From Candidatus Scalindua sp. (GTDB lineage Bacteria > Planctomycetota > Brocadiia > Brocadiales > Scalinduaceae), in NCBI GenBank assembly GCA_030748215.1, contig JASMMK010000010.1:1-64000 (forward strand): 64,000 nt of DNA, written 5' to 3'. Position 1 is the stretch's first letter, and every line of letters starts with the position of its first letter. A program made the translations under genes and the position numbers. The notes under the pieces are model-generated. The model did not search any database. It saw nothing but the letters and a program-made list of their open reading frames with translations, and was not told where the DNA came from. This document shows positions 757 through 50,709 of this stretch, piece after piece.

Positions 757-772
757 ACGAAATATTTTCGTA
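757..772 (+). promoter_or_regulatory. Candidate sigma-54 enhancer (UAS) upstream of cytochrome c' gene
   Basis: ACGAAATATTTTCGTA is a near-palindrome that also reads as a CGAA-N7-CGTA direct repeat. Its centre is 140 bases before the GC of the sigma-54 promoter at 893-906. The closest relatives in the window are the sites at 46343, 46385, 50530 and 50562, at nearly the same distance from other sigma-54 promoters. It is interpreted as the binding site of an enhancer-binding protein. Confidence 0.55.
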
Positions 773-891
773 TTTACTAATATACTATTTGCTAATCATT
801 TTTTTACGAAATTACGTCTTGACGAGTAAGACATTGTTGGACCATTACTTATACATCTATTAAATATTTTTATCTGTTAATAGATCAATAA

Positions 892-907
892 CGGTACCAA
901 TATTGCG
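892..907 (+). promoter_or_regulatory. Sigma-54 promoter of the cytochrome c' gene
   Basis: The core GGTACCAATATTGC has GG (893-894) and GC (905-906) separated by exactly 10 bases, with TTGC in the -12 element, as in sigma-54 promoters. The same 14 bases occur on the minus strand at 46208-46221, before the acetolactate synthase-like gene. Transcription would start near 917, leaving a leader of about 150 bases before the gene at 1067. Confidence 0.7.
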
Positions 908-1066
908 CGTTATATAAGCGAAAGCTTGGCCTTTTAAAGTTGCATATTAGTATTGTTGGAAAGCAATGTTTCGTGCTAAACTAAATTTGCTATATCTGTG
1001 AATAAAGTTAATTTTTAAAGATACTGTATATTTTATTTTTGAAGAAAGAAAAAGGAGGAATGCATA

Positions 1067-1567
1067 ATGAAGAAAATTTATCAAGTGTGTATAGCTTTAT
1101 TTTGTGCGTTAGTTATTACTTCAGGGGTTCTAACCTTCAGCGGAGAAAGCAGTAAAGTCTATGCAGCTGCAGGAGGAGATACTATGCATGACTCTATGGC
1201 TACTAAATATGCGATGAAAGCTGTAGGCTCATCTATGTCTAAAATTCTGGACGGATTATTGACTGGTGATTTTGATGTAGTGATTAAAGAGTCTAATAAG
1301 ATATCCAGAATCAGTAAGTATATGGTTGATATGTATTTTCCGGATGACGAATGGGGACTGGTAGGCCGGAAATTTAAAATGTCTGACAAAGCAATGAAAG
1401 CGGAATATGAGAAATACGCAAAAGAGATGGCTGTAGCCACTAAAAACCTTGCAGATACTGCAAAAGATGGAGACAGCGTAGAAACATATGAAGTTTTTGA
1501 TTCATTGTTAAGAAACTTATGCTTTGAATGTCATAAAGCGTCCCGTACAGACTGGCCTGCTAAATAG
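1067..1567 (+). CDS. Cytochrome c'-like (class II) monoheme c-type cytochrome
   Basis: The 166-residue protein has a Sec signal peptide (about residues 1-34), a mostly helical body and a single heme motif CFECH at residues 152-156, near the C-terminus. A C-terminal CXXCH on a four-helix protein is typical of class II cytochromes (c' and c-556), which bind or sense NO and small gases or carry electrons in the periplasm. The ATG is preceded by AAAGGAGG 9 bases away. A paralogue lies at 50932 and a relic at 8497. The gene is monocistronic, between a sigma-54 promoter and a hairpin terminator. Whether it is a true cytochrome c' (five-coordinate heme) cannot be decided from the sequence. Confidence 0.85.
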   Translation: MKKIYQVCIALFCALVITSGVLTFSGESSKVYAAAGGDTMHDSMATKYAMKAVGSSMSKILDGLLTGDFDVVIKESNKISRISKYMVDMYFPDDEWGLVGRKFKMSDKAMKAEYEKYAKEMAVATKNLADTAKDGDSVETYEVFDSLLRNLCFECHKASRTDWPAK

Positions 1568-1590
1568 AGGGTAAGTTACTTCGCCTTTTA

Positions 1591-1629
1591 TAGCGCATCT
1601 ACATTCTTGTAGATGCGCTATATTTTTTT
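1591..1629 (+). terminator. Rho-independent terminator after cytochrome c'
   Basis: A perfect 13-base inverted repeat TAGCGCATCTACA / TGTAGATGCGCTA (1591-1603 and 1608-1620) with a 4-base loop is followed by TATTTTTTT. It begins 24 bases after the stop codon at 1567. Confidence 0.92.
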
Positions 1630-1640
1630 CACTTACCGCC

Positions 1641-1676
1641 TTAACTCGAAACATCTTAACTCGTAACACGCAACTC
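1641..1676. repeat. Heptamer-type dispersed repeat (TTAACTCG/CGTAACACG units)
   Basis: Units of about 7 bases, such as TAACTCG, GTAACAC and GCAACTC, follow one another. The same units recur near 11251, 14703, 19692, 21671, 22392, 26781, 34230 and 34847, always between genes. Confidence 0.6.
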
Positions 1677-1679
1677 TTT

Positions 1680-2696
1680 TCACCTCTTACCTGCCTTGTA
1701 TTTTTGAATCTGTTTGGAAGTTATGCCTTCCGGCAGGCGTGTGCGCATACCAATGATGGCCGGTGCAAGCTGCTTTACCGTTATGCTTTCCACTCCCCTC
1801 AGATCAGCTCCACGCAAATCCACACCACGCAGATCTGCACCTGACAAGTTTGCTCCTGACAAGTTCGCCGACGACAATTTTGCCTTCTGCAAGTCTGCTC
1901 CCGTCAGGTTCGCATCCTGCAGGCTTGCACTTGTCAAATCTGCCCCTTGTAGATTTACATGCTTCAGGTTTGCTCCCTGCAGGCTCGCATTCTTCAAGTT
2001 AGCCTTTTGCAAAACTGCATCCAGCAGGTTTGCATCACGCAGGTTTGATGCTGATAAATTTGTATGTGACAGATTTGCCCCTGTCAGGTCAGCTTCCTGG
2101 AAAGATGACCACGGCATCTCCGCACCTTCAAAATCTCCCCATCGCAATATCATTCCCTTCGCTTCCGCACCCTCCAGCATCTTAACACCCAAAGCACTCT
2201 TCAGACTGTCCTTATTGTATTTGGGTATATCCCTGAACGTTAGACCATCCGGGAATTTTGTCTCTTTATCGTAGACGGTCGTAATAATCTGCCTGATGGC
2301 GAGATTTTCAGCACCGGTCAGATTTGCTCCACGCAAGTCCACGTCTGCAATGTTTGCACCGGAAAGATCTGCCCCTTGCAAATCGGCCCCTCGCAGGTTT
2401 GCCTTTCTCAGGTTTATCCCCTTCAGATTCGCTCCCTGCAGGTTCGCCTGCGCCAGGTCAGCCTCCTGCAGATAGAGCCATCGCAAATCGAACCCTGACA
2501 GGTTTGCCCCTCTTAGCGATTTAACACCCAGTCTTCTCTTAAGCTGCTCTGCATCATACCCGAACTCACCTTCCTGCAGCTTTACTGCCCCTCCCTTAAC
2601 AAGCAAGAGAGTCTCACCCGCATCAGAGACAAGCGACCCGAAAAGAGTGCACAAGCCGATCCCAAAACCAACGACAAAAAAACTATATTTTTTCAT
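1680..2696 (-). CDS. Exported pentapeptide-repeat protein
   Basis: The 338-residue protein has a signal peptide (about residues 1-27) and two blocks of A(D/N)LXX pentapeptide repeats (about 59-130 and 180-300). These predict a right-handed square beta-helix. The two blocks are separated by, and end in, similar non-repeat segments containing (T)[14 protein letters not shown] and [15 protein letters not shown], so the protein is an internal duplication. Such proteins are often secreted or periplasmic and act by protein binding; the target is unknown. The start MKKYSFF was chosen because it begins the signal peptide. The next gene on this strand is far upstream, so it is probably transcribed alone. 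The antisense strand is open by virtue of the repeat codons only. Confidence 0.88.
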
Positions 2697-2901
2697 TTCA
2701 GGTACCCACTATACAGTTAAATAGCGAAGCAACACTGCTCTACTATAAAACACATCACATTTAATTTTCTAATAGAACCTGTAACTATACCACCAATTAC
2801 CTCAGTAATAAAGTCTGAAAACAGAAGCGTTCCACTCTCTAATCTACTTATTTTATCCCTTCATCTCTTCCTATACGTTTTACATACTATTAAGGTTTTA
2901 A

Positions 2902-3069
2902 TTATCCAACTTTAGGCAATTTGATAATTATCTTATCGCCATCGTGCTCCATCTCTGCCTTGGTACTGTCAACACCATAGGGAACAGGAAATGAACGGTG
3001 AAATGTTGAGCTTGAGAACTGTCTGGAACTTCCATTTTTACTTTTATCTCCTGTTTCTTTCTCAAATGA
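2902..3069 (-). pseudogene. Hsp20 C-terminal relic 1
   Basis: Translated, the frame reads ...FSSSTFHRSFPVPYGVDS, then TKAEMEHDGDKIIIKLPKVG and a stop. This is the C-terminal half of an alpha-crystallin domain (FxRxFxLPxxVD...KAxxxxGxLxIxLPK). The open frame begins after a TAA with no usable start codon, and the N-terminal 80-90 residues are missing. It lies downstream of three intact Hsp20 genes on the same strand, so it is most simply a decayed member of a tandem array. Confidence 0.75.
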
Positions 3070-3197
3070 TTATATCTGTTGCGATTTTTCTCTATGCCGG
3101 GTTATTAAATCCCGCCAGACCCTGGTAGGTATCCTTTCTCTTTTAAAGTTAGCCCGCTTCAAGACAATAATCTCTCTCGCTTAGAAAGCTGCTTAAT

Positions 3198-3236
3198 GGA
3201 GGCACTCGATACGCAAATCTTGTACTGAGTGCCTCC
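3198..3236. repeat. Inverted repeat between Hsp20 relics
   Basis: GGAGGCACTC (3198-3207) and GAGTGCCTCC (3227-3236) form a perfect 10-base stem with a 19-base loop. There is no T run on either side, so it is not a classical terminator. It may end or stabilise the hsp20 transcript. Confidence 0.55.
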
Positions 3237-3253
3237 CATGATAAGCATCAAAT

Positions 3254-3349
3254 TCATTCACTTTTTACTTCAATCTTCCGAACATTTTCCTGAGCTTTTT
3301 CACTCTTTGGTAATGTGACCTTCAATACTCCCTTCTTAAATACGTTACT
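3254..3349 (-). pseudogene. Hsp20 C-terminal relic 2
   Basis: The last 31 codons of an Hsp20 remain: FKKGVLKVTLPKSEKAQENV, then RKIEVKSE and a stop. The pattern GVLxVxLPK followed by a short basic tail is the usual end of the family. Nothing upstream of it in frame resembles the rest of the domain, and there is no start codon with a ribosome site. It sits 13 bases after the stop of the intact Hsp20 at 3363, as though a further tandem copy lost its 5' part. Confidence 0.75.
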
Positions 3350-3362
3350 ACAGTAGCTCGAT

Positions 3363-3773
3363 TCAGCTTATCTCAATCTTCTTAGGTCGCGACTCCTCAG
3401 CCTTTGGTAATGCCAAGGTCAAGACACCGTCAGTAAGATTCGCATCAATTTTTGCTGTATCAATAGTGTTTGATACGGTAAATCTTCGGGTATAATGACC
3501 TACATTGTACTCGGTATATACCGGATTAAGGCTCTCATAGGGCGAATTGTCTATTTTGGCATCGACTTCCAGGATATTATTTTCCAAGGTGATATTTACA
3601 TTGTCCTTTTTTACGCCGGGAACATCCATAGTTACAACCAGACTGTTTTCTGTTTCAGCAATATCAGTTTTAGGAATATAACATTTCCCCGGAATAGTTC
3701 TCTCTCCGGCATATTCGGTTTTTTCCGGCTTCCTGTTTTTAGCTTTCGTTACCTCTTTCGTTTCCTTGCTCAT
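3363..3773 (-). CDS. Hsp20/alpha-crystallin small heat-shock protein (third of array)
   Basis: The 136-residue protein has a charged N-terminal arm (about 1-35), an alpha-crystallin domain (about 36-125: DIAETENSLVVTMDVPGV, the GVLTLALPK strand) and the tail KKIEIS. Small heat-shock proteins are ATP-independent holdases that keep unfolding proteins soluble in the cytoplasm. AAAGGAGG stands 7 bases before the ATG. It is 20 bases downstream of the Hsp20 at 3794. The N-terminal arm is short and lysine-rich compared with its neighbours, so the three copies have diverged and may form mixed oligomers. Confidence 0.9.
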   Translation of the reverse strand: MSKETKEVTKAKNRKPEKTEYAGERTIPGKCYIPKTDIAETENSLVVTMDVPGVKKDNVNITLENNILEVDAKIDNSPYESLNPVYTEYNVGHYTRRFTVSNTIDTAKIDANLTDGVLTLALPKAEESRPKKIEIS

Positions 3774-3793
3774 GATATCCTCCTTTCATCTAA

Positions 3794-4213
3794 TTATTGG
3801 ATTGTAATCTGTTTTGGTTTATCTGCCTCCGCACGTGACAGAGCAACAACCAGAAGACCGTCTTTATATTCAGCTTTCACCTTATCAGACTGAACGTTAT
3901 ATGGTAGCTTCAACGTCCTGTCAAATTTAGAAGAGTTACGTTCAACACGGTGGTAGCTGACATTTTCGCCATGCTTAATAGTACGTTCTCCTGCGAGTCT
4001 AATTGTGTCTCCTTTTACTTCTATGTTCAGATCCTCTTTTCTTACTCCGGGTAATTCCGCAACAAGAACTAAATCGCCATTGTTTTCAAAGATATTTACC
4101 GGTGGATACACACCTCGACTGGTCGTTGCGCTATCAAAGAAACCTGTATTAAACGTGCGATCCATGGCATCCTGTAATCCTAGTAAAGTTTCAAGTGCTC
4201 CTGGTAGTAACAT
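3794..4213 (-). CDS. Hsp20/alpha-crystallin small heat-shock protein (second of array)
   Basis: The 139-residue protein has the hydrophobic N-terminal arm MLLPGALETLLGLQDAMDR, then the alpha-crystallin domain (about 35-130) with ELPGVRKEDLNIEVKGD and the GLLVVALSR strand, and ends PKQITIQ. In the last strand the usual LPK is LSR. AAAGGAGGT stands 6 bases upstream of the ATG. It lies between two other Hsp20 genes in one apparent transcript from the sigma-54 promoter near 4881. Molecular chaperone of the holdase type; client proteins unknown. Confidence 0.92.
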   Translation of the reverse strand: MLLPGALETLLGLQDAMDRTFNTGFFDSATTSRGVYPPVNIFENNGDLVLVAELPGVRKEDLNIEVKGDTIRLAGERTIKHGENVSYHRVERNSSKFDRTLKLPYNVQSDKVKAEYKDGLLVVALSRAEADKPKQITIQ

Positions 4214-4316
4214 TTCAGACCTCCTTTCAAAACTAAGGTATATTGCTCTACAATTTATTTTTCAGCTCGACAGTGTTGAGAAGCAGGTTTCGCCCGCATC
4301 TCAACACTGTACATAT

Positions 4317-4763
4317 TCAGGCAGTTTTTACAGTTATCTTCTTCGTCTTTGCCTCTTCCATCTTTGGCAGAGTAATTTCCAACACACCATGATGATTCTT
4401 TGCCACTATCTCATCTGTTTTAACATGTGCGGGAAGTGCGATCGTTCGGGTAAAACTTCCATAAGATCTTTCAACACGATGATAGGATTTACCCTTGTCT
4501 TCCTTGTCTTCCTTCTCTTCCTTTTTTTCTCCCTTTATTGACAGCTTGTCATCTACGATTGAAATATCCATCTCCTTTGGATCTACTCCTGGAATCTCAG
4601 CCTTTACGACAATCTCGTTGTCTGTTTCAGCAATATCAACATCAGGGTTCCATCCCTTTCCAAAAGATTTAGTATCCCAAAAACCCTCCAACATCCTGTT
4701 CATATCGTCATGCAGCGTCGTAAATAAAGGCTCTCTCTCCCATCTTCTTAATTCCTTTTTCAT
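4317..4763 (-). CDS. Hsp20/alpha-crystallin small heat-shock protein (first of array)
   Basis: The 148-residue protein has an N-terminal arm with LRRWEREPLFTTLHDDMNRM and an alpha-crystallin domain (about 38-140: DIAETDNEIVVKAEIPGV, the GVLEITLPK strand) with an acidic-lysine insert EKKEEKEDKEDKGK near residue 80. It ends KKITVKTA. This is the promoter-proximal gene: a near-perfect sigma-54 promoter lies about 105 bases upstream, with a candidate activator site behind it. AGGGAGGT stands 7 bases before the ATG. It acts as a holdase on denatured proteins. Confidence 0.93.
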   Translation of the reverse strand: MKKELRRWEREPLFTTLHDDMNRMLEGFWDTKSFGKGWNPDVDIAETDNEIVVKAEIPGVDPKEMDISIVDDKLSIKGEKKEEKEDKEDKGKSYHRVERSYGSFTRTIALPAHVKTDEIVAKNHHGVLEITLPKMEEAKTKKITVKTA

Positions 4764-4867
4764 TTTGTTTACCTCCCTTCAGGATTTAAATAATTGTAAT
4801 AAATAATTCGTACAGTAATACTTTTCAGTAATTTGAGAGTTTTTCTCTCTCTTCAGTTATTGATATC

Positions 4868-4881
4868 GCAACGAGTGTGCC
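4868..4881 (-). promoter_or_regulatory. Near-perfect sigma-54 promoter for the hsp20 genes
   Basis: On the minus strand the sequence is TGGCACACTCGTTGC, matching the consensus TGGCAC-N5-TTGC at every defined base. GG and GC are separated by 10 bases. The predicted start is near 4856, about 93 bases before the first hsp20 start codon. Confidence 0.82.
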
Positions 4882-4954
4882 AGAACTCTTAAACCATTGC
4901 AATATAAGCACTTAAGATTATATGATAATAAAAAAACAGCTTTTTATCTGCCAT

Positions 4955-4974
4955 ATGGGAATATTGATACCCTT
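4955..4974 (-). promoter_or_regulatory. Candidate activator site 1 (ATGGG-N10-CCCTT dyad)
   Basis: The dyad ATGGGAATATTGATACCCTT is centred about 108 bases upstream of the predicted hsp20 transcription start, a normal distance for a sigma-54 enhancer. It matches the dyad at 5095-5114 in half-sites and spacer length. Single half-sites CCCAT (4993-4997) and ATGGG (5020-5024) lie between them. Confidence 0.5.
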
Positions 4975-5094
4975 TTGTAGTTGCTTCAGATACCCATTTT
5001 TGTTAGATTGTAACGATCAATGGGAAGCAGTTAGTGGAATTTTCTTGTTTCTGTATATATTTAGATAACTTATAGAGAAAATCTAATAATACAA

Positions 5095-5137: not shown

Positions 5138-6679
5138 ATGACAAAGAAAAAAAACCAAACCCAACAATTGCTTACGTCCAATGAAGAAAAAAAGGCAGAA
5201 CTTCAGCCAACTTTATTAACGAGCCACGGAACAATTGATAAGTCAATTATAGATAACTTAGATTCTGATGTAGTTCTTTTAGATAAGAACTTTAATATCG
5301 TACACATGAATAAAACCGCCGAACACTCTTATGGCAAAAACCTTGATGATGTAAAGGGCACAAACTATCTGGCATTGCATATGAGATCAATAGAACAGGG
5401 CATGGCAGAAAACCTGAACAAGGTCTTAAAAACCGGGAAGGAATTAAATATTAGAGAGCTGAAGCTTACCTCGCCTGAAAATGTTACCCATTTTTTTGAC
5501 CAGAGCTGTACCCCTATTATTGACGATGAAGGGACAATACAGGGTGTTCTTTCAATCAGTAAAGACGTTACTAAGAGGGTAAATAAAGAGATCCAGTATG
5601 AAGAATCCGAAAAGATGCTGGAGAAACTTACCCGGGAATTGGGTATAAAGGAAGACAAAATCAGGAGACTGCAAACTTCATTAGGAGAGAGGTACCATTT
5701 TCATAACTTAATCGGTAAAAACTACCTGATGCAGAACGTTTACAATCTTATAGACAGGGTTTCTCAAACAGATTCTACCATTCTCATCACAGGAGAGACA
5801 GGAACCGGCAAGGAACTGGTAGCAAGGGCTATCCATTATAACAGCCTCAGAAAGGACCAGAACATGGTGGCTGTAAACTGCGCCGCTTTGCCTGAAACAC
5901 TTTTAGAAAGCGAACTATTTGGGCATGTTAAGGGCTCTTTTACCGGAGCGATTCGTGATAAAAAAGGAAAGTTTGAGCTTGCAGACAAAGGAACAATATT
6001 CCTGGATGAAATCGGTGAATTATCAACCCTCACCCAAGTTAAGCTCTTACGGGTACTACAGGAAAGACAGATAGAAAGGGTAGGAGGCGAGAAGAGTATA
6101 AGGGTTGATATTCGTATTATTGCGGCAACAAACCAGGATCTCCTGGAACTGATAGAAAAAGGAAAGTTCAGGAAAGACCTCTTTTACCGGCTCAACATAA
6201 TCTCTATAAGACTTCCATCTCTTAAAGAACGTGCTGATGATATCCCCTTGCTAGTCGACCACTTCATTGAGAAATTCAACAATCGCTTCAAAAAAAATAT
6301 TTCTGGTGTTTCATTCGGTGTTTTAAGGAAACTTATGTCATATTCATGGCCGGGAAATATAAGAGAGCTGGAAGGAGCCATTGAGAAAGCTGTCCTATTG
6401 GAAGAATCTGACACTATTGAATATATAGAACTACTGAATACTTATTCAGATGAAGCACCGCTTCTGCCATTACCGTTAAACGCAGAACATGATATCTCCT
6501 CTTACGATAACATGCAGGAATATTTAGACAGCATTGAAAAGGAATACTTTGTTGAGGCGTTTAAGAAACATAAAGGCAAAATAAGCGACATAGCTGAATC
6601 CACAGGGCTGAATCGGCGCACGATCTTAAACAAGATGAAGAAATTCTCTATAAAGAAAAACACGTTCAAACAGCGTTAA
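5138..6679 (+). CDS. PAS-domain sigma-54-dependent transcriptional activator
   Basis: The 513-residue protein carries a PAS sensor domain (about 38-150, VVLLDKNFNIVHMNKTA), a coiled linker (about 155-185), an AAA+ sigma-54 interaction domain (about 188-415; Walker A GETGTGKE at 219-226, the sigma-contacting loop as GSFTGA at 266-271, Walker B FLDEIGE) and a Fis-type HTH at about 465-507. It remodels the closed sigma-54 RNA polymerase complex using ATP. No receiver domain is present, so the PAS domain, not a phosphorelay, probably senses the signal. The gene is divergent from the hsp20 array, which has a sigma-54 promoter, making it the likely activator of hsp20. The PAS ligand (heme, flavin, none) cannot be read from the sequence. 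Confidence 0.92.
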   Translation: MTKKKNQTQQLLTSNEEKKAELQPTLLTSHGTIDKSIIDNLDSDVVLLDKNFNIVHMNKTAEHSYGKNLDDVKGTNYLALHMRSIEQGMAENLNKVLKTGKELNIRELKLTSPENVTHFFDQSCTPIIDDEGTIQGVLSISKDVTKRVNKEIQYEESEKMLEKLTRELGIKEDKIRRLQTSLGERYHFHNLIGKNYLMQNVYNLIDRVSQTDSTILITGETGTGKELVARAIHYNSLRKDQNMVAVNCAALPETLLESELFGHVKGSFTGAIRDKKGKFELADKGTIFLDEIGELSTLTQVKLLRVLQERQIERVGGEKSIRVDIRIIAATNQDLLELIEKGKFRKDLFYRLNIISIRLPSLKERADDIPLLVDHFIEKFNNRFKKNISGVSFGVLRKLMSYSWPGNIRELEGAIEKAVLLEESDTIEYIELLNTYSDEAPLLPLPLNAEHDISSYDNMQEYLDSIEKEYFVEAFKKHKGKISDIAESTGLNRRTILNKMKKFSIKKNTFKQR

Positions 6680-8034: not shown

Positions 8035-8409
8035 TTATTCCGTCTTTACCTGAATCTTCCCTTCCCATAGACCGTGTAAATTGCAACGACTGATCGCCCT
8101 TAATGTAGAATCGAGCCCATGATGACCCAGTTTCAGAGGAATTGTCACCTCTGGCTTTGTCATTACCGGTGCAAAATCAAATCTGCCCAGATATACATTG
8201 CCTACATAAAATTCAATCCATTGTATAAAATGTTCATTTTCATTCGGATGTTCAATTTCTCCCACCGTAATCTTTACATCGTAAAACTCACCGGCTTTTA
8301 AAACAGGAGGCACCGTAATAACGGGCACATGTTTTTTCGCCACCGGTGAATCTGACTCTACATCTTCAGGCTTATTTAACTTACAAAACAGCGCTTTTTC
8401 ATTCGACAT
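8035..8409 (-). CDS. Superoxide reductase (neelaredoxin type)
   Basis: The 124-residue protein is a single SOR domain without the N-terminal desulforedoxin domain. It reduces superoxide to hydrogen peroxide at a non-heme iron in the cytoplasm. Predicted iron ligands are H27 (KKHVPVI), H54, H60 (EHPNENEH), C109 and H112 (CNLH). The glutamate normally two residues before the first histidine is lysine (K25), while the adjacent catalytic lysine is kept (K26). A close paralogue lies at 40976 and a relic at 7514. Electrons would come from a rubredoxin- or desulforedoxin-like donor such as those near 48.7-50.4 kb. Confidence 0.9.
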   Translation of the reverse strand: MSNEKALFCKLNKPEDVESDSPVAKKHVPVITVPPVLKAGEFYDVKITVGEIEHPNENEHFIQWIEFYVGNVYLGRFDFAPVMTKPEVTIPLKLGHHGLDSTLRAISRCNLHGLWEGKIQVKTE

Positions 8410-40975: not shown

Positions 40976-41350
40976 CTATTCAGTCGATACCTGAGCAGTG
41001 CCTTCCCAAAGTCCGTGCATATTGCATCGGCTTACGGCCCTCAGTGTAGAGTTGAGCCCACTATGACTCAGCTTCAAAGGAATTGTCACCTCCGGCCTTG
41101 TCATTACCGGTGCAAAATCAAATCTGCCCAGATATACGCTTCCTATGTAAAACTCAACCCACTGTATAAAATGCTCATTTTCATTCGGATGTTCTATCTC
41201 TCCGACAGTAATCTTTACATCGTAAAACTCACCAACCTTAAAAACAGATGGTGCAGTAATAACCGGTACATGCTTTTTGGCCACCGGAGAATCCGGCTCT
41301 ACATCTTCTGGTTTGTTAACTTTACAGAATAGCGCTTTATCATTTGACAT
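40976..41350 (-). CDS. Superoxide reductase (neelaredoxin type), second copy
   Basis: The 124-residue protein is about 85% identical to the SOR at 8035, by eye. Iron ligands are H27, H54, H60, C109 and H112 in the same contexts (KKHVPVI, EHPNENEH, CNMHG). As in the first copy, lysine replaces the glutamate two residues before H27. The DNA is also alike, but with many third-position changes. It lies 61 bases upstream of aspartase and 54 bases after the Tll0287-like cytochrome, inside the long run that may be driven by the sigma-54 promoter near 46221. Confidence 0.9.
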   Translation of the reverse strand: MSNDKALFCKVNKPEDVEPDSPVAKKHVPVITAPSVFKVGEFYDVKITVGEIEHPNENEHFIQWVEFYIGSVYLGRFDFAPVMTRPEVTIPLKLSHSGLNSTLRAVSRCNMHGLWEGTAQVSTE

Positions 41351-43025: not shown

Positions 43026-44417
43026 CTATAAATGCTTGTTTTTAATAACCATCATTTTCGTTCGTGTCATCTCTTCCATAGAGTATGGAATACCTCCCAT
43101 ACCGATGCCTGATTCATCCCGGCCACCAAAAGGCATCCAATCAACTCTAAATGCGGTATGATCATTGACCATGACTGCTGTCGCATTTAACTTTTTAACA
43201 ATCTCCATGCCGGCATTTAGATTGTCAGTAAATACTGAGGCCTGAAAAGAATAAGGCAGAGCATTCGCCTGTTTGATTGCCGTATTCCGGTCTGTATAAC
43301 TAAAGACACAAACCACCGGTCCAAACACTTCCTGGATTGAAACTTTACTATCTTCCGGTGGATTTAAAAGTACGGTCGGAGCATAATGGAAATCCGATAG
43401 CCGCTGGCCACCACATAGTAAAACGGCTCCTTTTTCCACCGCTTCATTGACCCATTGTTCAACCCGGTCAACTTCTCCGGGCGTAATGAGAGGGCCAACC
43501 TCTGTTTTCTCATCCAGGGGATCTCCAACAATAAGCTCTTTAGCCATTGCCGCCAACCTTTGAGCCACGTCATCACAGATCTCCTCATGAACAAAGACGC
43601 GTTGCACAGAAACACACACCTGACCTGCATGATAGAATCCACCTTTAAGCAGACCCGGTAACATCTCGTCTATATCCGCATCGGGTTCCACTATGACAGG
43701 AGCGACTCCACCATGCTCCAGGGCACAGCGTGTACCCGGTGACAGTTTTGAACGTAAAGACCAGCCAACTTTGGCAGAGCCTATAAAAGAGAAGTAATTA
43801 ATTCGTGAATCCATAACCAGCTTTTGAGTAAGTTCCACATCCCCGATAAAAGCTGTACACCAACCCTCTGGCAGACCGGCCTCTTTTAAGATGTCCATGA
43901 AAGCGAAACAGGAGAGAGGGGTGACTTTCGCAGGTTTAATAATTACAGGTGAACCCACGGCAATTGCCGGAACTGTCTGGTGAACAGTTAAATTCAGAGG
44001 ATGGTTAAAAGCACTCACTGAAGCGACTAAACCAATGGGCTCTCTCATAGTATAAGCCAGTCGTTGAGAAGAGGAGCGTGTGTGTCCCATAGGAATCTGC
44101 TCCCCTTTTATATGGCCAATATTATCTATTGCCAGTTTGACTCCGTTAACAGCCCTTAAGACTTCTATCTTAGAATCCTGATAGGGCTTGCCACCTTCCT
44201 CGGCGGCAATTTTAGTCAACTTATCAATCTGCCCGGTCATAATCTGAGCAACTCTTTCTAAAATTTCTATCCGTTCATAAGCCGGCAGCCACTGTTCAGT
44301 ATTTAGAAATAACCGGTGAGCTTTACTTAAAATATTTTCCAGAGTTTGAGTATCCATCAGAGGAACTTCTTGAATTAAGCTCTGGTCATGAGGTCTATTT
44401 ACTTTGATAACTGTCAT
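43026..44417 (-). CDS. NAD(P)-dependent aldehyde dehydrogenase
   Basis: The 463-residue protein has the family motifs VSAFNHPLNLTVHQTVPAIA, the nucleotide-binding IGSAKVGW (about 212), the general base EHGG (about 237) and the catalytic cysteine in HAGQVCVSVQRVFV (about 272). It oxidises an aldehyde to an acid, or to acyl-CoA in the CoA-dependent branch. It resembles phosphonoacetaldehyde/lactaldehyde-type dehydrogenases. It lies 24 bases downstream of the acetolactate synthase-like gene, a pairing that suggests a common small-molecule pathway. A C-terminal relic sits at 42036. Confidence 0.9.
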   Translation of the reverse strand: MTVIKVNRPHDQSLIQEVPLMDTQTLENILSKAHRLFLNTEQWLPAYERIEILERVAQIMTGQIDKLTKIAAEEGGKPYQDSKIEVLRAVNGVKLAIDNIGHIKGEQIPMGHTRSSSQRLAYTMREPIGLVASVSAFNHPLNLTVHQTVPAIAVGSPVIIKPAKVTPLSCFAFMDILKEAGLPEGWCTAFIGDVELTQKLVMDSRINYFSFIGSAKVGWSLRSKLSPGTRCALEHGGVAPVIVEPDADIDEMLPGLLKGGFYHAGQVCVSVQRVFVHEEICDDVAQRLAAMAKELIVGDPLDEKTEVGPLITPGEVDRVEQWVNEAVEKGAVLLCGGQRLSDFHYAPTVLLNPPEDSKVSIQEVFGPVVCVFSYTDRNTAIKQANALPYSFQASVFTDNLNAGMEIVKKLNATAVMVNDHTAFRVDWMPFGGRDESGIGMGGIPYSMEEMTRTKMMVIKNKHL

Positions 44418-44441: not shown

Positions 44442-46085
44442 TTATAAAATACAGGTTTTTTCTTTAAGCAATACATTCAATATACCGTGGTTTAAAGAGT
44501 AGTCAACGGCTAAATCAATCACGTGAATGCCACGAGTATTCAACACTTTTTCCAGTATTTCATCAAAGTTTTGTACACTATCTGGGCGATAGCCATTCGC
44601 GCCATAACTTTCAGCGTACTTGACAAAATCGGGATTACTGTAATCTAAGCCAAAATTGTCAAAACCCATACCTGCCTGTTTCCATTTGATCATGCCATAA
44701 GCGTTATCATTCAGAATAATTACCGTCAGGTCTAAGTCCAGTCTGACGGCAGTTTCCATCTCTTGAGAGTTCATCAGAAAACCACCATCTCCACAAACCG
44801 CAATCACCTTTTTGTCAGGTTCAATAATTTTAGCAGCTATAGCCGACGCCAATCCCGCACCCATAGTTGCCAGAGCGTTGTCAAGAAGAAGAGTATTTGG
44901 ATGATAACATTTATAGCTTCGGGCAAACCAGATTTTATAAACACCATTGTCTAAGCTGACAATACCATCATCAGGAATCTGTTTTCTGACGATAGGCACA
45001 ACTGCTTGAGGGAGTATTGGAAAACGATTATCCTCAACATATTTTGCCAAGTGCTCCTTCACGTACTCTTTAATCCGCATAAAATACGAAAAGTCCCAGT
45101 TGACGCTCTCTTCTACAACATGACGGGCAAGATGTTCTACGGAAGTAGCGATATCGCCGACTATAATGAGTTGCGGGTAATAGACATCGTCTACATGGGC
45201 CGGAAAAAAGTTAATATGAATGACTTTTTGTCTATCAACCATAAAAAAGGGCGGCTTTTCTATCACATCATGACCAATATTGATGATCAAATCTGCCCGA
45301 CTAATTGCGCAGTGTAAAAAATCATTATCTGACAATGCTGCTGTTCCCAAACATTGAGGATGCCGTGCATCAACAACCCCTTTACCCATCTGAGTAGTAA
45401 AATAAGGGATCTGGGTTTTTTCAATCAATCTTTCAAGAGCCCGACTTGTGCGTTTACGGTTAGCACCCGCACCTATCAGGATTAAAGGCATTTTGGACTC
45501 TTTGATCATCCGGGCGGCTTTTGAGATATCCTGATCATCCGCGTCAGGTCTCCTATAGCCAACTACTTCAAATATGCGCTCCTCACACTCTTCAGCTGCA
45601 ATATCTTCTGGTAGTTCCAGATGTACCGCTCCAGGCCGCTCTTCCTGGGCTATCCTGAAGGCTTCTCTCGTCATAGACGGAATACTGTTACCATTAACAA
45701 TTTGCTTACTATATTTGGTAATGGGGCGCATCATATCAACAGTATCAATAATCTGGAAGCGCCCTTGTTTGCTTTTCTTTATCGGCTTTTGCCCAGTGAT
45801 CATGAGCATGGGCATAGCGCCTAAGTTAGCATAAGCAGCCGGGGTCACTAAGTTAGTTGCACCGGGACCTAAAGTGGCAAGACAAACTCCCGGTTTGCCT
45901 GTTAAACGGCCAACGGTGGCTGCCATAAAACCGGCACCTTGCTCATGACGGGTTATAATTAACTTTATTTTAGAATCTTTAAGGGAGTTTAATAAATCCA
46001 GGTTTTCTTCACCCGGTATCCCAAATACATATTCGACACCCTCATTTTCAAGGGCCTTAACAAACAGATCAGAAGCTTTCATCAA
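44442..46085 (-). CDS. Acetolactate synthase-like ThDP enzyme (catabolic AlsS type)
   Basis: The 547-residue protein has the ThDP glutamate (RHEQGAGFMAATVGRLTGKP), a central FAD/structural domain, and the ThDP-Mg motif GDGGFLMNSQEMETAVRLDL...NDNAYGMIKWKQ. It most resembles catabolic acetolactate synthases without a regulatory subunit; no ilvN is adjacent. It would condense two pyruvate to acetolactate with CO2 release. A related ThDP activity on another 2-oxoacid is possible. It is the first gene after the sigma-54 promoter near 46221, with a 112-base leader. Confidence 0.85.
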   Translation of the reverse strand: MMKASDLFVKALENEGVEYVFGIPGEENLDLLNSLKDSKIKLIITRHEQGAGFMAATVGRLTGKPGVCLATLGPGATNLVTPAAYANLGAMPMLMITGQKPIKKSKQGRFQIIDTVDMMRPITKYSKQIVNGNSIPSMTREAFRIAQEERPGAVHLELPEDIAAEECEERIFEVVGYRRPDADDQDISKAARMIKESKMPLILIGAGANRKRTSRALERLIEKTQIPYFTTQMGKGVVDARHPQCLGTAALSDNDFLHCAISRADLIINIGHDVIEKPPFFMVDRQKVIHINFFPAHVDDVYYPQLIIVGDIATSVEHLARHVVEESVNWDFSYFMRIKEYVKEHLAKYVEDNRFPILPQAVVPIVRKQIPDDGIVSLDNGVYKIWFARSYKCYHPNTLLLDNALATMGAGLASAIAAKIIEPDKKVIAVCGDGGFLMNSQEMETAVRLDLDLTVIILNDNAYGMIKWKQAGMGFDNFGLDYSNPDFVKYAESYGANGYRPDSVQNFDEILEKVLNTRGIHVIDLAVDYSLNHGILNVLLKEKTCIL

Positions 46086-46207: not shown

Positions 46208-46221
46208 GCAATATTGGTACC
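46208..46221 (-). promoter_or_regulatory. Sigma-54 promoter for the acetolactate synthase run
   Basis: On the minus strand GGTACCAATATTGC has GG and GC separated by 10 bases, and is identical to the promoter at 893-906. The predicted start is near 46197. It is divergent from the promoter at 46519, and both share the sites at 46343-46399. Confidence 0.72.
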
Positions 46222-46342: not shown

Positions 46343-46399
46343 CGCAGATATTTCGCACCGCATTTGGCTATACCCACTGTCATTCGCACAATTTTCGCC
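46343..46399. promoter_or_regulatory. Pair of candidate sigma-54 enhancer sites shared by divergent promoters
   Basis: CGCAGATATTTCGCA (46343-46357) and CGCACAATTTTCGCC (46385-46399) are both CGCA-N7-CGCM direct repeats, 42 bases apart (four helical turns). The left site is centred 141 bases from the minus-strand GC at 46209, the right one 139 bases from the plus-strand GC at 46531. Confidence 0.6.
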
Positions 46400-46518: not shown

Positions 46519-46532
46519 GGTATAGGTATTGC
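46519..46532 (+). promoter_or_regulatory. Sigma-54 promoter for the SOR/desulforedoxin cluster
   Basis: GGTATAGGTATTGC: GG (46519-46520), 10 bases, GC (46531-46532), with TTGC in the -12 element. The predicted start is near 46543, 88 bases before the Tat-exported SOR-like gene. Confidence 0.65.
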
Positions 46533-46630: not shown

Positions 46631-47062
46631 ATGCCAAACAGAAGAACGTTCTTAAAATCATCATTAGCAGTTGCAGCAGGCCTTGCCGTTGGCCACATAT
46701 CCCCCGTTTCTGCCGGTCAGTCTTGTTCGTCTCTTAAAGGCATTATTTATACAAAGCAAAACCCGGGCAAATGGTCTGGGAAAACTAAGGGACATCTGCC
46801 AAATGTAAAAGTAGAAGGAAACAGGGTAACAGTCACGACCACTCATGGCATGAGCGATGAGCACTATATTGTGAGACATACAATAGTTTCTAAATGTGGC
46901 GAGGTACTGGGAGAGAAGACTTTTCGTCCATCTGATTCAGAGGCAAAGTCAGTATTTGAACTGCCGGACACCAGTTCTAAATATGCGTGGGATACCACAA
47001 CACTTTTTGCCACCAGCTTCTGTAACAAGCACGATCTCTGGGTTGCTGCATTCGAAGCGTAA
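46631..47062 (+). CDS. Tat-exported superoxide reductase-like protein
   Basis: The 143-residue protein has a Tat signal (RRTFLKSSLAVAAGLAVG) and a desulfoferrodoxin/SOR-like domain. Iron ligand positions are kept: H55 (KGHLP), H72 and H78 (THGMSDEHYI), C121 and H124 (CNKH). The usual N-terminal EKH(V/I)P is KGHLP, so the glutamate and catalytic lysine differ. It would fold with iron before export and reduce superoxide in the periplasm (or in the anammoxosome, if the host is an anammox bacterium). It heads the cluster behind the sigma-54 promoter at 46519. Confidence 0.8.
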   Translation: MPNRRTFLKSSLAVAAGLAVGHISPVSAGQSCSSLKGIIYTKQNPGKWSGKTKGHLPNVKVEGNRVTVTTTHGMSDEHYIVRHTIVSKCGEVLGEKTFRPSDSEAKSVFELPDTSSKYAWDTTTLFATSFCNKHDLWVAAFEA

Positions 47063-47107
47063 CAATCTGTAATAGCCCCGCCCCGCAAAAGATAAAGGCG
47101 TAAAATA

Positions 47108-47139
47108 GCCACCGGGACATTCCAGAGAAGCCCGGTGGC
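47108..47139. repeat. GC-rich inverted repeat after the Tat-SOR gene
   Basis: GCCACCGGG (47108-47116) and CCCGGTGGC (47131-47139) pair perfectly with a 14-base loop, 46 bases after the stop codon. No T run follows, so it could be a transcript-end or processing hairpin rather than a classical terminator. Confidence 0.6.
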
Positions 47140-47326
47140 GCTACGCTCGTACCGATCCAGGCATAATTCATATGAGTTGAAATGACATATTCACAGATGC
47201 TAATTGATTTTCATTGTTACGACAATTTGCCCCACCAAAAGGTTGACTAGAATGCTGTTATAAGGTAGACTAACCGAAGCATAGGTCGCATTTATTTCAT
47301 AAACAAATTTTTCGAAAGTTTTAAGG

Positions 47327-48700
47327 ATGGCAGAGCACGTAATCATTGGTAACGGAGTTGCCGGCATAAAGGCGGCAGAAACGATCAGGAAACATGACCC
47401 CGATGGTAAAATAACAGTGATAGGCGATGAAAACCATGCGTTCTATTACAGGCCTCAGCTTCCGGAGTTTGTTGCCGGGAAGATTGAAGAAGCGAGGTTG
47501 TGGGGAAAAAAGAGCGATTTTTATGAGAAAAACAACATTATTTCTATCCTTGGCAAAACAGTAACCGGCATCAAACCTGACGCTAATGAGGTTATTTTAA
47601 AGGACGATGCCGCTATCAGTTATGATTCATTACTAATCGCCACAGGAGGCGCCATAAAAAGGAGAAACTATCCTGGAAGCGATTTGAATGGAGGAATAGT
47701 TCAATTAAAAACAATTGATGATGCCAGGAGCATAAAGGAAAAAGTCAAATCTGCAAAGAGTGCTGTAGTAGTCGGTGAAGATTTTTTGACACTGTCGCTA
47801 ACAGAAGCCTTGCATAGCAGCGGAGTGGAAGTAACTTATCTGTTGCGCGGGGATAGACTCTGGCCTGAAATCATGGACAAAGACGCCTCCGACATACTTA
47901 TGCTCAGATTGAAGGAAAAGGGCATTACGATAAAACAGGAAACTGATATTAAAGAAGTTCATATTAAAGACAGGTTGGTTCATGGGATAATCACGACAAA
48001 TGATGAACTTATTGACTGTCAGATTCTTGGAATTGTTGACAAATTACAGCCCAGCATTGGCTTCTTAAATGAGAGTGGCGTCAATACCGACAACGGCATT
48101 TTGGTAAACAACAAAATGCTTACTAATTTTGACAATATTTATGCCGCCGGCGATGTTGCTCAATTGCCTGCCGATCTGGACTCTGAAATTCCAGAGATTA
48201 ATGTCAGATGGCTGAAGGCGTGGAAGCAGGGGCAGGTGGCAGGTTCAAATATGGCAGGCAATGACGCGGAATATGATGATATCGCAAGCATCAGCGCAAC
48301 TCAAATATGTGGAATTGATATAGTATCAATAGGAGTCTCAAATCCATTAAACGGAGACTATAAGATACAGAGAGGTGATTATCCTCATCCTGAAACTGAT
48401 GTTTATAAAAAACTTGTCTTAAAAGACGACAGAGTAGTCGGTGCCCTCTTTGTTGGCAATGCGCAGGAGGCCAGGGAGATTACGAAGGTTATAAAAGATG
48501 GAACAAGCTATTCAGAAATTGATAAAAAACTTTTGAAACAGATGTTTGATCTGGGTTCTCGTTTCAGCACGTTTCGTGGTTTTTTATGTCCTGTTTGTAA
48601 ACTTGAACTTCCCATACCGCCTGACGCGAAGGCCGGGGATAAAATCACATGTCCGGCCTGTGGTATTGAACTTAAAGTAACCGAGGGCATGTTAAAATAG
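47327..48700 (+). CDS. Rubredoxin-reductase-like flavoprotein with C-terminal zinc/iron ribbon
   Basis: The 457-residue protein has an FAD motif VIIGNGVAGIKAAETI at the start, a central NAD(P) region, the FAD end motif NIYAAGDVAQLP (about 280) and a C-terminal extension with two CxxC pairs (CPVCKLELPIPP...CPACGIEL, about 425-450). It is a relative of NirB/rubredoxin:NAD oxidoreductases. The central nucleotide motif is VVVGEDFLTLSLTEAL, departing from GxGxxG. The ribbon resembles a rubredoxin-type metal site, so the protein may combine reductase and electron carrier. It likely supplies electrons to the desulforedoxins and rubrerythrins that follow. Confidence 0.82.
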   Translation: MAEHVIIGNGVAGIKAAETIRKHDPDGKITVIGDENHAFYYRPQLPEFVAGKIEEARLWGKKSDFYEKNNIISILGKTVTGIKPDANEVILKDDAAISYDSLLIATGGAIKRRNYPGSDLNGGIVQLKTIDDARSIKEKVKSAKSAVVVGEDFLTLSLTEALHSSGVEVTYLLRGDRLWPEIMDKDASDILMLRLKEKGITIKQETDIKEVHIKDRLVHGIITTNDELIDCQILGIVDKLQPSIGFLNESGVNTDNGILVNNKMLTNFDNIYAAGDVAQLPADLDSEIPEINVRWLKAWKQGQVAGSNMAGNDAEYDDIASISATQICGIDIVSIGVSNPLNGDYKIQRGDYPHPETDVYKKLVLKDDRVVGALFVGNAQEAREITKVIKDGTSYSEIDKKLLKQMFDLGSRFSTFRGFLCPVCKLELPIPPDAKAGDKITCPACGIELKVTEGMLK

Positions 48701-48706
48701 CAAATA

Positions 48707-48982
48707 ATGGGACAAAAAGGACAAATATATTTTTGTGAGATTTGCAGGCAAAAGGTTGAGGTAACGGTAGACGCCTTCGGAGTGCTTGTCTGCTGTGGGC
48801 AGGAGATGAAGCTTGTTGAGGGCATGATGGAGACCTGGACTTCAGTTCATCCCAAGCCGGTTGGAGGCACAACTTATATCTGCAAAAAGTGCGGTCAGCA
48901 GATATCTGTAGTGGAAGAGACATCTGGTATACTGGAATGCTGTGGCGAAAGAATGGAACGTAAGGATACGAGTGACGGTTAG
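48707..48982 (+). CDS. Double desulforedoxin-like protein
   Basis: The 91-residue protein has two desulforedoxin modules of the form CxxC...CC: CEICRQ...LVCCGQEM (about 10-33) and CKKCGQ...LECCGERM (about 58-82). Desulforedoxin domains bind one Fe(Cys)4 each and serve as the electron-transfer head of desulfoferrodoxin. A duplicated stand-alone form would hold two iron centres. It starts 6 bases after the previous stop, so it is probably co-translated with the flavoprotein and may transfer electrons from it to the SORs. Confidence 0.85.
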   Translation: MGQKGQIYFCEICRQKVEVTVDAFGVLVCCGQEMKLVEGMMETWTSVHPKPVGGTTYICKKCGQQISVVEETSGILECCGERMERKDTSDG

Positions 48983-49050
48983 ATAATATCTATATTGAAA
49001 CTTTTCGTAGCCGCATTTATTGGGTTACGTAACTTATGTGAGATTATATT

Positions 49051-49284
49051 ATGAACAGTTGGAAATGTGATAGCTGTGGCGCTCAATATGACGCAAACGA
49101 ACCGCCGGAAATATGCCCCTCATGTGGCAAGTCATGTGAGTTTAGAGAAATCACTAATTATGTTCCCTTGACGGAAAGAACGGGAAGAGATTGTAAATGC
49201 AGGGTATGCGGAACAGAAATTAAAATTACTGCTGATTGTGGCGGTATCCTCAAGTGTTGCGATCAGCCTATGGCGGTAGAATAA
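49051..49284 (+). CDS. Rubredoxin-like plus desulforedoxin-like fusion
   Basis: The 77-residue protein has an N-terminal rubrerythrin-type rubredoxin module (WKCDSCGAQYDANEPPEICP then SCGKSCEF, about 4-31) and a C-terminal desulforedoxin module (CRVCGTEI...LKCCDQPM, about 50-74). Two different one-iron sites in so small a protein suggest an electron carrier bridging the rubrerythrin and SOR systems. It precedes two rubrerythrin-like genes by a few bases. The ATG has no strong SD but the next genes follow closely, so the unit is probably translated. Confidence 0.85.
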   Translation: MNSWKCDSCGAQYDANEPPEICPSCGKSCEFREITNYVPLTERTGRDCKCRVCGTEIKITADCGGILKCCDQPMAVE

Positions 49285-49291
49285 ACAAGGT

Positions 49292-49753
49292 ATGCAAAAC
49301 GAAAACATAGAGTCGATTTTGAAAAAAGCTGCTGCCAAAGAAGAGGGCACATATTTACTTTACAAAAATGCAGCGGACAAGATGACAGACTTACAAACAA
49401 AGAGCACCTTAAACACGTTTGCCGAAGAAGAACTAAAACACAAACAGGTGATTGAAAACTTCAATGCAGAAATGCTGGAAGAACTAAAGGTTGAAGCAGT
49501 AGAAACATCTCGACAGGGAATAACGGAATTTCTTACTGATACCGATGAAGGCCTTGGTGAGCAACCGGATTTTAAAGACGTACTCGTTTATGCAGCAAAA
49601 AGAGAAAAAAAAGCATATGAATTTTATAGTAACATGTCTGAACATGTAGAAGATGCAGATTTAAAAAAATTGTTTGTCTGGCTGGCACAAGAAGAGACAA
49701 AACATAAAGAAGACATTGAGACCCTGTTCTGGGATGTAATGTATCGTGAATAA
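49292..49753 (+). CDS. Rubrerythrin-like ferritin-fold diiron protein
   Basis: The 153-residue protein shows the ferritin-like pattern twice: AAAKEEGTYLLYKNAADKMT with FAEEELKHKQVIENF, and KREKKAYEFYSNMSEHVEDA with LAQEETKHKEDIETLF. The glutamates and ExxH pairs fit a diiron site that reduces hydrogen peroxide. It has no C-terminal rubredoxin domain, so it needs a separate donor such as the protein at 49051, whose gene ends 8 bases upstream. The paralogue at 49774 follows by 20 bases. Confidence 0.88.
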   Translation: MQNENIESILKKAAAKEEGTYLLYKNAADKMTDLQTKSTLNTFAEEELKHKQVIENFNAEMLEELKVEAVETSRQGITEFLTDTDEGLGEQPDFKDVLVYAAKREKKAYEFYSNMSEHVEDADLKKLFVWLAQEETKHKEDIETLFWDVMYRE

Positions 49754-49773
49754 CCTTATAAGGAGAATAAGAA

Positions 49774-50232
49774 ATGGCGCACAAGCAGCTAAGTGAAATT
49801 ATGGATATGGCAATTCAATTCGAAACTGACGCAAGTGAATTTTACTCAACGGCCGCGGATATTGCAAAAGACCCTTCCGCTAAAACATTACTCAAAGAGT
49901 TTGCAGCTATTGAGTTAAAGCATAAGCAGAAATTGGAAAGCTTCAATTTAGACGAAATTGCAGATGAACATCATACCATTCCAAAAACACACGATCTTCA
50001 TGTAAGTGATTATCTAGTGGATAAAGAGGTTACTCCGGATTCTACCTCTCAAGACATAATGGTGCATGCAATGAAGAGAGAACAAAAGGCGTATGAGTTT
50101 TATGCAAGGATGTTAAAGGTTGTTACCAGTGATGATGTCAGGAGTCTCTTTGAGGAACTGGCTGAAGAAGAACTGGAACACAAAGAAAAAATTGAAATAG
50201 AATATGATGATGTAGTATGTAAAGAAAATTGA
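49774..50232 (+). CDS. Rubrerythrin-like ferritin-fold diiron protein, second copy
   Basis: The 152-residue protein shares the layout of the preceding one: MAIQFETDASEFYSTAADIA, FAAIELKHKQKLESF, KREQKAYEFYARMLKVVTSD and LAEEELEHKEKIEIEY, with the same ExxH motifs. It is a probable peroxide-reducing diiron protein in the cytoplasm. AAGGAGAAT lies before the ATG. Two adjacent copies with only about 40% similarity by eye indicate an old duplication. A stand-alone desulforedoxin gene follows after 23 bases. Confidence 0.88.
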   Translation: MAHKQLSEIMDMAIQFETDASEFYSTAADIAKDPSAKTLLKEFAAIELKHKQKLESFNLDEIADEHHTIPKTHDLHVSDYLVDKEVTPDSTSQDIMVHAMKREQKAYEFYARMLKVVTSDDVRSLFEELAEEELEHKEKIEIEYDDVVCKEN

Positions 50233-50255
50233 TATAGTCCAGGGGGGGCAATGTA

Positions 50256-50381
50256 ATGTCTTCACATAAAACCGAATTATACTATTGTGAAATATGTGGA
50301 GCCGAGATTGTAGTTAAAAAAGGCGGGGACGGAACCCTGAACTGTTGCCGCCAGAAGATGAGGTGTAAAAAAGACGGGTAA
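50256..50381 (+). CDS. Stand-alone desulforedoxin, 41 aa
   Basis: The short frame encodes MSSHKTELYYCEICGAEIVV and KKGGDGTLNCCRQKMRCKKDG, one desulforedoxin module with CEIC and NCC. AGGGGGGG lies 5 bases upstream of the ATG, supporting translation. It closely resembles desulforedoxin of sulfate reducers, a small homodimeric Fe(Cys)4 protein that donates electrons to superoxide reductase. It ends the cluster. Confidence 0.85.
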   Translation: MSSHKTELYYCEICGAEIVVKKGGDGTLNCCRQKMRCKKDG

Positions 50382-50529
50382 GAGCATAAATATTAAGAAC
50401 CATATTAATCCCTGTTCCTTATTCAATAATCCATAGGAGAGATTCTGTTCAAAGAAAAAATTAATCACTTTGACCTGATTCCCATACTAAATTAACACCT
50501 CCTATTTATCAACCACACCTCTATTGCCA

Positions 50530-50576
50530 CGAAAACATATCGCCATACACCACTTACGCTCCGCAATATTTTCGCA
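50530..50576 (+). promoter_or_regulatory. Pair of candidate sigma-54 enhancer sites upstream of the cbb3 operon
   Basis: CGAAAACATATCGCC (50530-50544) and CGCAATATTTTCGCA (50562-50576) have the CGNM-N7-CGNM form, 32 bases apart (three helical turns). The right-hand one is centred 138 bases before the GC of the promoter at 50695. Confidence 0.6.
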
Positions 50577-50693
50577 TGCACATGTAAATAAATCAACAAA
50601 CAGTTTCATTATTTTTGATACCAACACCCTCAACATATTACCACTTAACCGCTTAAAGCTTTTAAGGTTCTGCTGCCTGCGAAAATTAATTTT

Positions 50694-50709
50694 TGGCATT
50701 AATATTGCG
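50694..50709 (+). promoter_or_regulatory. Sigma-54 promoter for cytochrome c' and the cbb3 operon
   Basis: TTGGCATTAATATTGCGC has TGGCA, a 10-base gap between GG (50695-50696) and GC (50707-50708), and TTGC. Transcription would start near 50719, with a leader of about 213 bases. Confidence 0.72.

Follow-up and report, generated by a model that had tools for sequence, protein, structure and literature searches.

A candidate sigma-54 stress-defence regulon in Candidatus Scalindua with palindromic enhancers at a near-constant distance from their promoters

Four sigma-54 promoters (GG-N10-GC) in a 64,000-base stretch of Candidatus Scalindua DNA, hereafter the window, each carry a palindrome, CGNA-N5-TNCG, about 140 bases upstream, and this pairing of site and promoter recurs across the genus. 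We put at roughly three in four the probability that they belong to one sigma-54 regulon for defence against oxygen, reactive oxygen species and nitrogen oxides, run through these enhancers by a histidine kinase and an NtrC-type regulator. The window opens contig C10 (JASMMK010000010.1) in a draft genome of 2.44 Mb, which contains a single rpoN gene (one PF04552 match, E 3.5e-58). This genome, G000, is counted among the 13 same-genus genomes compared here (G000 to G012).

Results

Four promoters share a palindromic site

A first-pass annotation of the window had proposed that four sigma-54 promoters share an enhancer at a fixed distance, and all four promoters lie where it placed them. They resemble TGGCAC-N5-TTGC in 4 of 4 cases. 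The promoters and their predicted sites, with distances given in bases from the centre of the site to the G of the -12 element, are as follows.

893..906, + strand: sigma-54 promoter (GG-N10-GC), GGTACCAATATTGC
46208..46221, - strand: sigma-54 promoter (GG-N10-GC), GGTACCAATATTGC; conserved in G008 and G009
46519..46532, + strand: sigma-54 promoter (GG-N10-GC), GGTATAGGTATTGC; orthologues in G004, G008 and G009
50695..50708, + strand: sigma-54 promoter (GG-N10-GC), GGCATTAATATTGC
758..770: predicted enhancer palindrome, CGAAATATTTTCG, 141 from promoter 893; orthologous site at 140 in G007 and G009
46343..46355: predicted enhancer palindrome, 140 from promoter 46221 and 182 from promoter 46519
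46385..46397: predicted enhancer palindrome, 140 from promoter 46519 and 182 from promoter 46221
50562..50574: predicted enhancer palindrome, CGCAATATTTTCG, 139 from promoter 50695; orthologous site at 139 in G007 and 138 in G004
50530..50542: weaker predicted second site, 171 from promoter 50695; G007 (locus L129) has a site at the same place

The four 15-mers originally described as a direct repeat, CGNM-N7-CGNM, are present, and their centres lie 140, 141, 139 and 138 bases from the -12 G of promoters 893, 46221, 46519 and 50695, as claimed. The repeat itself is better described as an imperfect inverted one, CGNA-N5-TNCG, whose symmetric 13-mer (CG-N9-CG) is centred at 141, 140, 140 and 139 bases in the same order. 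We dropped the direct-repeat reading because, in relatives, the sites serve promoters in both orientations and differ between genomes in either half. The second copies also hold, 32 bases further upstream for promoter 50695 (at 50530) and 42 bases away for the divergent pair 46221/46519. Both members of that pair use the same two sites, and the window therefore offers three independent regions rather than four.

The pattern GGNAN6TTGC has 18 sites in the window, and a palindrome stands at 139-141 bases only in the four cases listed. When the four upstream regions were dinucleotide-shuffled (2000 trials), a single palindrome at 139-141 turned up in 1 trial and a single direct repeat at 138-141 in 9, and no trial had more of either, against an observed four of four. 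In these four regions the motif pair, for which the first-pass annotation had named shuffled DNA as the yardstick, is commoner than such DNA yields. The signal is the pairing of site and promoter at a fixed distance, not the motif by itself.

The pairing recurs across the genus

Starting from the sites, we took the motif CGNANWWWTTTCGYM and the promoter pattern GGNAN6TTGC through the 13 genomes. An outward-facing promoter at 137-145 or 181-186 bases accompanies 26 of the 51 motif matches, which represent 49 distinct sites, two being read on both strands (G000:756/758 and G010:C81:88788/88790). Among outward promoters up to 1000 bases from a motif, 23 lie at 137-145, 14 at 181-186 and 5 elsewhere; inward promoters number 4. 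Starting instead from the promoters, TGGYAYN4ATTGCG gave 99 matches against 2 for its mirror. These reduce to 96 distinct contexts, one with fewer than 200 bases upstream, in which CGNAN5TNCG is centred at 136-146 bases in 23, at 178-188 in 14 and at either in 24, with 10 palindromes elsewhere within 20-400 bases. Site-promoter pairs thus occur in 11 of 13 genomes, G001 only by the promoter-first test; several orthologous regions are common to G000, G006, G007 and G009, so that the cases are partly non-independent. Promoter positions 3 and 5, which the search left free, are pyrimidines in all 31 representatives, and position 10, equally free, is A in 27, although the representatives, clusters formed under a strict k-mer rule, are less independent than their number implies. 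This genus-wide comparison lends strong support to the claim that the promoters have one enhancer in common, at a distance that is nearly constant.

Orthologous regions bear on the geometry of the site. Around the divergent pair 46221/46519, G008 and G009 keep both promoters, with the palindromes in place and letters changed in both halves; in G009 one palindrome of the two is degenerate. The G004 orthologue of promoter 46519 (locus L326, G004:C65, promoter 575, + strand) has sites at 128 and 170, still 42 bases apart and about one helical turn nearer than about 139/181; the sites of its divergent partner are still at 139 and 181. That the distance hardly changes suggests a role for position on the helix, and the 128/170 case hints at the same; other off-distances are not whole turns (145 in G006, 118 in G004, 151 together with 182 in G012). 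A bend site between enhancer and promoter was sought among the 31 representatives with an IHF-like consensus taken from general knowledge, which matches at no fixed place. A promoter-anchored alignment had no upstream column above 0.75 bits, a weak test, in that the enhancer itself also failed to appear by it, its distance varying by a few bases.

A kinase-regulator pair is the likely activator

The activator is most likely an NtrC-type two-component response regulator whose DNA-binding end would be encoded at the very edge of the window.

2..175, + strand: C-terminal end of the proposed two-component activator, 57 residues, Fis-type helix-turn-helix (HTH), cut by the contig start

Bases 2-148 correspond to residues 405-453 of the G011 regulator at 86-88% identity, and this HTH end is all of the regulator that the G000 assembly contains. 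The G011 protein has a receiver (PF00072), an AAA+ sigma-54 interaction domain (PF00158) and a Fis-type HTH (PF02954). Full-length orthologues, 81-89% identical to it, occur in 10 of the 12 relatives, G011 itself included. In G012 a contig ends within the gene and residues 1-129 are present (84%), and G009 has interrupted pieces (81-83%, a short one 63%), so that the regulator, whole or partial, is present in 13 of 13 genomes. Among 14 near-complete copies aligned, the GAFTGA loop reads GAFTGA in 11 and GSFTGA in 3.

A PAS-HisKA-HATPase kinase adjoins the G011 regulator and, by similarity, most copies; one G008 copy (locus L217) retains a remnant of it only. In our own genome the kinase is cut off by the end of contig C40 after its first 73 residues and the regulator by the start of C10, and the pair therefore probably spans an assembly gap. 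The PAS domain of the kinase has conserved cysteines in the pattern C-x4-IF-C-HSS-x-G-x-C-x2-ICPG, of which G001 and G003 lack one; that they hold a metal or redox centre is a guess.

The regulator is linked to the site through its own operon, before which a site-bearing sigma-54 promoter stands in six genomes (G000, G004, G006, G008, G009 and G011), with sites at 142-144 and/or 183-187 bases. Behind that promoter lies the kinase-regulator pair, its leading gene or, for the G008 copy mentioned, the regulator with the kinase remnant. On the other side of it, in G000, G008 and G011, a gene leads into a labelled rubrerythrin gene. In G007, G009 and our own genome the regulator gene or its end shortly precedes a site-bearing cytochrome c' gene.

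The first-pass annotation had attributed all four promoters to one undescribed enhancer-binding protein. A single regulator is indeed the simplest reading, and we found no paper on it in the literature searched, outside which most subscription journals fell; the unnamed protein gives way to a predicted two-component regulator.

Outside the genus, G013 and G019, from other families of the order (loci L227 and L226), have a related kinase-regulator pair (53-54%) before two haem-oxygenase-like genes, which are homologues of a site-bearing Scalindua gene, and a TTTCG half-site 105-106 bases from GG-N10-GC. This is suggestive of a regulon extending beyond the genus, an extension that we do not claim.

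As a separate observation, kinase and regulator at 1041-3560 of G009:C5 (locus L173) appear interrupted by stops or frameshifts, from sequencing error or decay.

Contrary evidence and alternative explanations

Several observations weigh against a single regulon run by this pair. The motif alone is not enriched, with 51 matches against 52 for a mirror control in the 13 genomes and 63 against 73 in our own. No promoter stands at either distance from 25 of the 51 strict motif matches, and 72 of the 96 promoters have no site at those distances, although these promoters may belong to other activators. G003 and G010 have the regulator (82-84%), yet neither pattern gives a site-promoter pair in them; the site may have drifted in that branch. 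Besides, the kinase-regulator pair occurs without a site in G001, G002, G003, G005 and G010, as do second copies of it in G004 and G008; in G001 the two genes before the pair are succinate-dehydrogenase-like. Two of the candidate targets described below, aquaporin and the MlaA lipoprotein, have no obvious fit to stress defence. Moreover, other conserved enhancer-binding proteins are also found in most genomes, and presence alone therefore singles out none.

This last point leaves room for the same site and regulon to be served by another genus-wide two-component enhancer-binding protein, such as a 46% identical protein on G000:C28, which we regard as unlikely though the strongest of the rivals. 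What favours the proposed regulator over it is that its operon is site-bearing in six genomes, in a comparison that does not extend to the upstream regions of every other enhancer-binding protein, and that this operon adjoins site-bearing cytochrome c' or rubrerythrin genes.

The window itself encodes a further contender.

5138..6679, + strand: PAS-AAA+-HTH enhancer-binding protein with complete domains; disfavoured rival activator

Its proximity to promoter 893 (4 kb) and its complete PAS, AAA+ and HTH domains would suit an activator of the same sites and regulon, yet we think this improbable. Among the matches listed, near-full-length orthologues are confined to G008 and G011 (79-80%), G009 has broken pieces, and the best match in the other nine same-genus genomes is a paralogue of about 50%, a listing in which short pieces could be hidden. 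Site-promoter pairs are found without an orthologue in G001, G002, G004, G005, G006, G007 and G012, and the 538 bases before the gene contain neither a site nor GG-N10-GC. The conserved cysteine pattern of the kinase is absent from the first 200 residues. Being patchy (4 of 13 genomes among the matches listed, one broken), the candidate was rejected. Its closest named loci belong to Candidatus Scalindua (80%, with two more at 71% and 70%), Candidatus Kuenenia hertensis (74%) and a Planctomycetota bin (72%), a comparison on which the description of the genome as that of a Scalindua-like anammox bacterium is based; viral contigs yielded no relative.

Next to this gene, on the - strand at 3363-4763, lie an HSP20-type protein (3363-3773, PF00011) and two related open reading frames; with such neighbours the 5138-6679 protein may therefore serve another stress response.

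It is very improbable that the palindrome is instead the site of a repressor or co-activator, not itself an enhancer-binding protein, at sigma-54 promoters. Near-constant spacing is in general seen more with regulators in contact with polymerase than with enhancers that act by looping, but a protein bound about 140 bases away could not make such contact directly, and two dimers would be well served by a pair of sites four turns apart. Sigma-54 promoters also require an enhancer-binding protein, according to the part of a review available to us (PMC7057263). A chance coincidence of common short motifs, with which the parity of the palindrome and its mirror control would agree, has next to no probability given the single shuffle in 2000 with even one of the four palindromes and the recurrence of the distances in 11 genomes, and we count it as already refuted by the genus-wide and own-genome pairings.

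The predicted regulon and its genes

The regulon appears much larger than the four promoters first described, which do share the site: candidate promoters in our own genome number at least 12, four of them in the window. The own-genome pairing covers the 50 of 63 palindromes and 100 of 224 promoters among the matches listed. On contigs C1-C19 (30 palindromes and 100 promoters among those matches) there are 13 outward pairs within 1000 bases, 5 at 139-141, 5 at 181-183 and 3 elsewhere (79, 334 and 969), and 5 inward pairs. Three regions on C20-C45, besides C23, C30 and C40, have scattered distances only. Outside the window the candidates are the following.

C15: one candidate promoter; MlaA lipoprotein
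C16: two candidate promoters; L-PSP family protein, and aquaporin with a TPP enzyme
C19: one candidate promoter; multicopper-oxidase-like protein
C23: one candidate promoter
C30: one candidate promoter; haem-oxygenase-like protein
C40: two candidate promoters

Nine of the at least 12 have a site near 140; C16:59950, C19 and C23 were seen only with a site near 182. Within the window the genes below follow the four promoters, operon extents being judged from gene order and strand.

1067..1567, + strand: cytochrome c'-like protein (Pfam PF01322), behind promoter 893
44442..46085, - strand: acetolactate-synthase-like enzyme (NCBIfam NF006187), behind promoter 46221
43026..44417, - strand: aldehyde dehydrogenase (PF00171)
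40976..41350, - strand: superoxide reductase (desulfoferrodoxin) paralogue, a close BLAST relative of 8035-8409 (PF01880)
46631..47062, + strand: Tat-signal desulfoferrodoxin-like protein (PF01880, PF10518), behind promoter 46519
47327..48700, + strand: pyridine-nucleotide/rubredoxin-reductase-like protein (PF07992, PF18267)
49292..50232, + strand: two rubrerythrin-family proteins (49292-49753 and 49774-50232; PF02915)
50932..51447, + strand: cytochrome c'-like protein (PF01322 weak, below cut-off), 34% identical to 1067-1567
51408..53936, + strand: heavy-metal P-type ATPase (TIGR01525, above cut-off)
54206..56335, + strand: cbb3-type oxidase with fused COX1 and FixO domains (PF00115, PF02433)

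The superoxide reductase paralogue, further along the same strand, would belong to the 46221 operon, and the homologous gene comes with a site and promoter to itself in G001, G002, G005 and G012. The cbb3-type oxidase appears to share an operon with the genes of promoter 50695 and is probably among the regulon genes. In relatives, the genes behind such promoters encode rubrerythrin together with glutamate dehydrogenase and peroxiredoxin, and superoxide reductase together with a lyase and a cytochrome; others encode ferritin, haem-oxygenase-like proteins, carbonic anhydrase, MlaA and aquaporin.

The two superoxide reductase genes of the - strand, 8035-8409 and 40976-41350, are closely related. 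Beside the cytochrome c' gene, a large pentapeptide-repeat protein is encoded at 1680-2696 (-), a neighbour also found in G007 (86%).

Discussion

Under the regulon that we favour, the histidine kinase would sense a redox or NO-type (nitric oxide) signal through its cysteine-bearing PAS domain and phosphorylate the NtrC-type regulator, whose domains (receiver, AAA+, Fis-type HTH) suit such a role. Regulator dimers would bind CGNA-N5-TNCG at a distance of about 140 bases before the -12 G, and often at about 182 as well; with the two sites about four helical turns apart, dimers would sit on one face of the DNA and could nucleate the AAA+ ring, which a DNA loop would bring to the sigma-54 polymerase for remodelling. 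The regulator would also control its own operon. A wider proposal, which we offer tentatively and would not favour at even odds, is that this is a global oxygen/NO-defence regulon of one two-component system with enhancers at one helical address, that it supplies the missing nitrite/NO-linked regulator of the cytochrome oxidase genes, and that sensing is by the cysteine-PAS domain, perhaps through an iron-sulphur centre.

The mechanism is ordinary sigma-54 activation and is known, while novelty appears to lie in the regulon, its regulator, the palindrome and the constancy of the distance; the literature searched, which left most subscription journals outside, yielded no study of a sigma-54 regulon in anammox organisms. 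The proposed system resembles NtrB-NtrC in its kinase, its receiver-AAA+-Fis HTH regulator, its paired upstream palindromes and its -24/-12 promoters, and differs from it in serving stress defence at no fewer than 12 candidate promoters, in sites at near-constant 140 and 182, and in the conserved cysteines of the kinase PAS domain. Like NorR-type NO detoxification, it would place defence genes linked to NO/O2 under sigma-54. NorR has a GAF domain and acts as a one-component regulator; unlike it, the proposed regulator has a receiver, gives no GAF match and would need a kinase. The in-window PAS protein 5138-6679 scores 349.6 bits against a NorR cut-off of 476.

Conserved upstream sites with -24/-12 promoters, often several each, are also described for Clostridiales sigma-54 regulons, in which, in the part of the study available to us, most sites lie at 100-250 bp and an activator has a single operon in 65% of cases and two to six in the others (PMC6615313); unlike there, one distance here recurs at many promoters. 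The Desulfovibrio vulgaris sigma-54 regulome likewise concerns an anaerobe with many enhancer-binding proteins and predicted palindromic sites, and the words oxygen, rubrerythrin and nitric oxide are absent from the available portion of its text (PMC4641369). Activator sites are placed about 100-150 bp upstream in the accessible part of the review cited above (PMC7057263).

In a Scalindua enrichment, superoxide reductase rose by about log2 4 (about 16-fold) 24 h after O2, and cbb3/cytochrome oxidase genes underwent a nitrite/substrate-linked, O2-independent induction whose mechanism was called unresolved, with NO suggested as signal (PMC13253579, 2026, as far as its text was available). A regulon joining cytochromes c', superoxide reductase and the cbb3 oxidase fits these responses, a fit tempered by the differences among these genes in the same excerpt. 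In this sense, the regulon is a candidate for the route by which nitrite/NO would control cytochrome oxidase genes in Scalindua, with a specific kinase and regulator proposed for it. Scalindua-type anammox bacteria appear to induce many oxygen/NO-defence genes via one DNA signal, and its geometry, one distance kept by many promoters in many species, is a natural experiment on DNA looping.

An additional observation comes from G000:C40 (locus L216), where a site-bearing promoter leads, at 2477-5020 (+), into an ammonium-transporter/histidine-kinase fusion and a receiver-only protein, followed by rubrerythrin. For a similar sensor, Ks-Amt5, the response regulator is described as yet to be identified in the available part of PMC12918730, and the receiver-only neighbour on C40 is a candidate response regulator for such a sensor.

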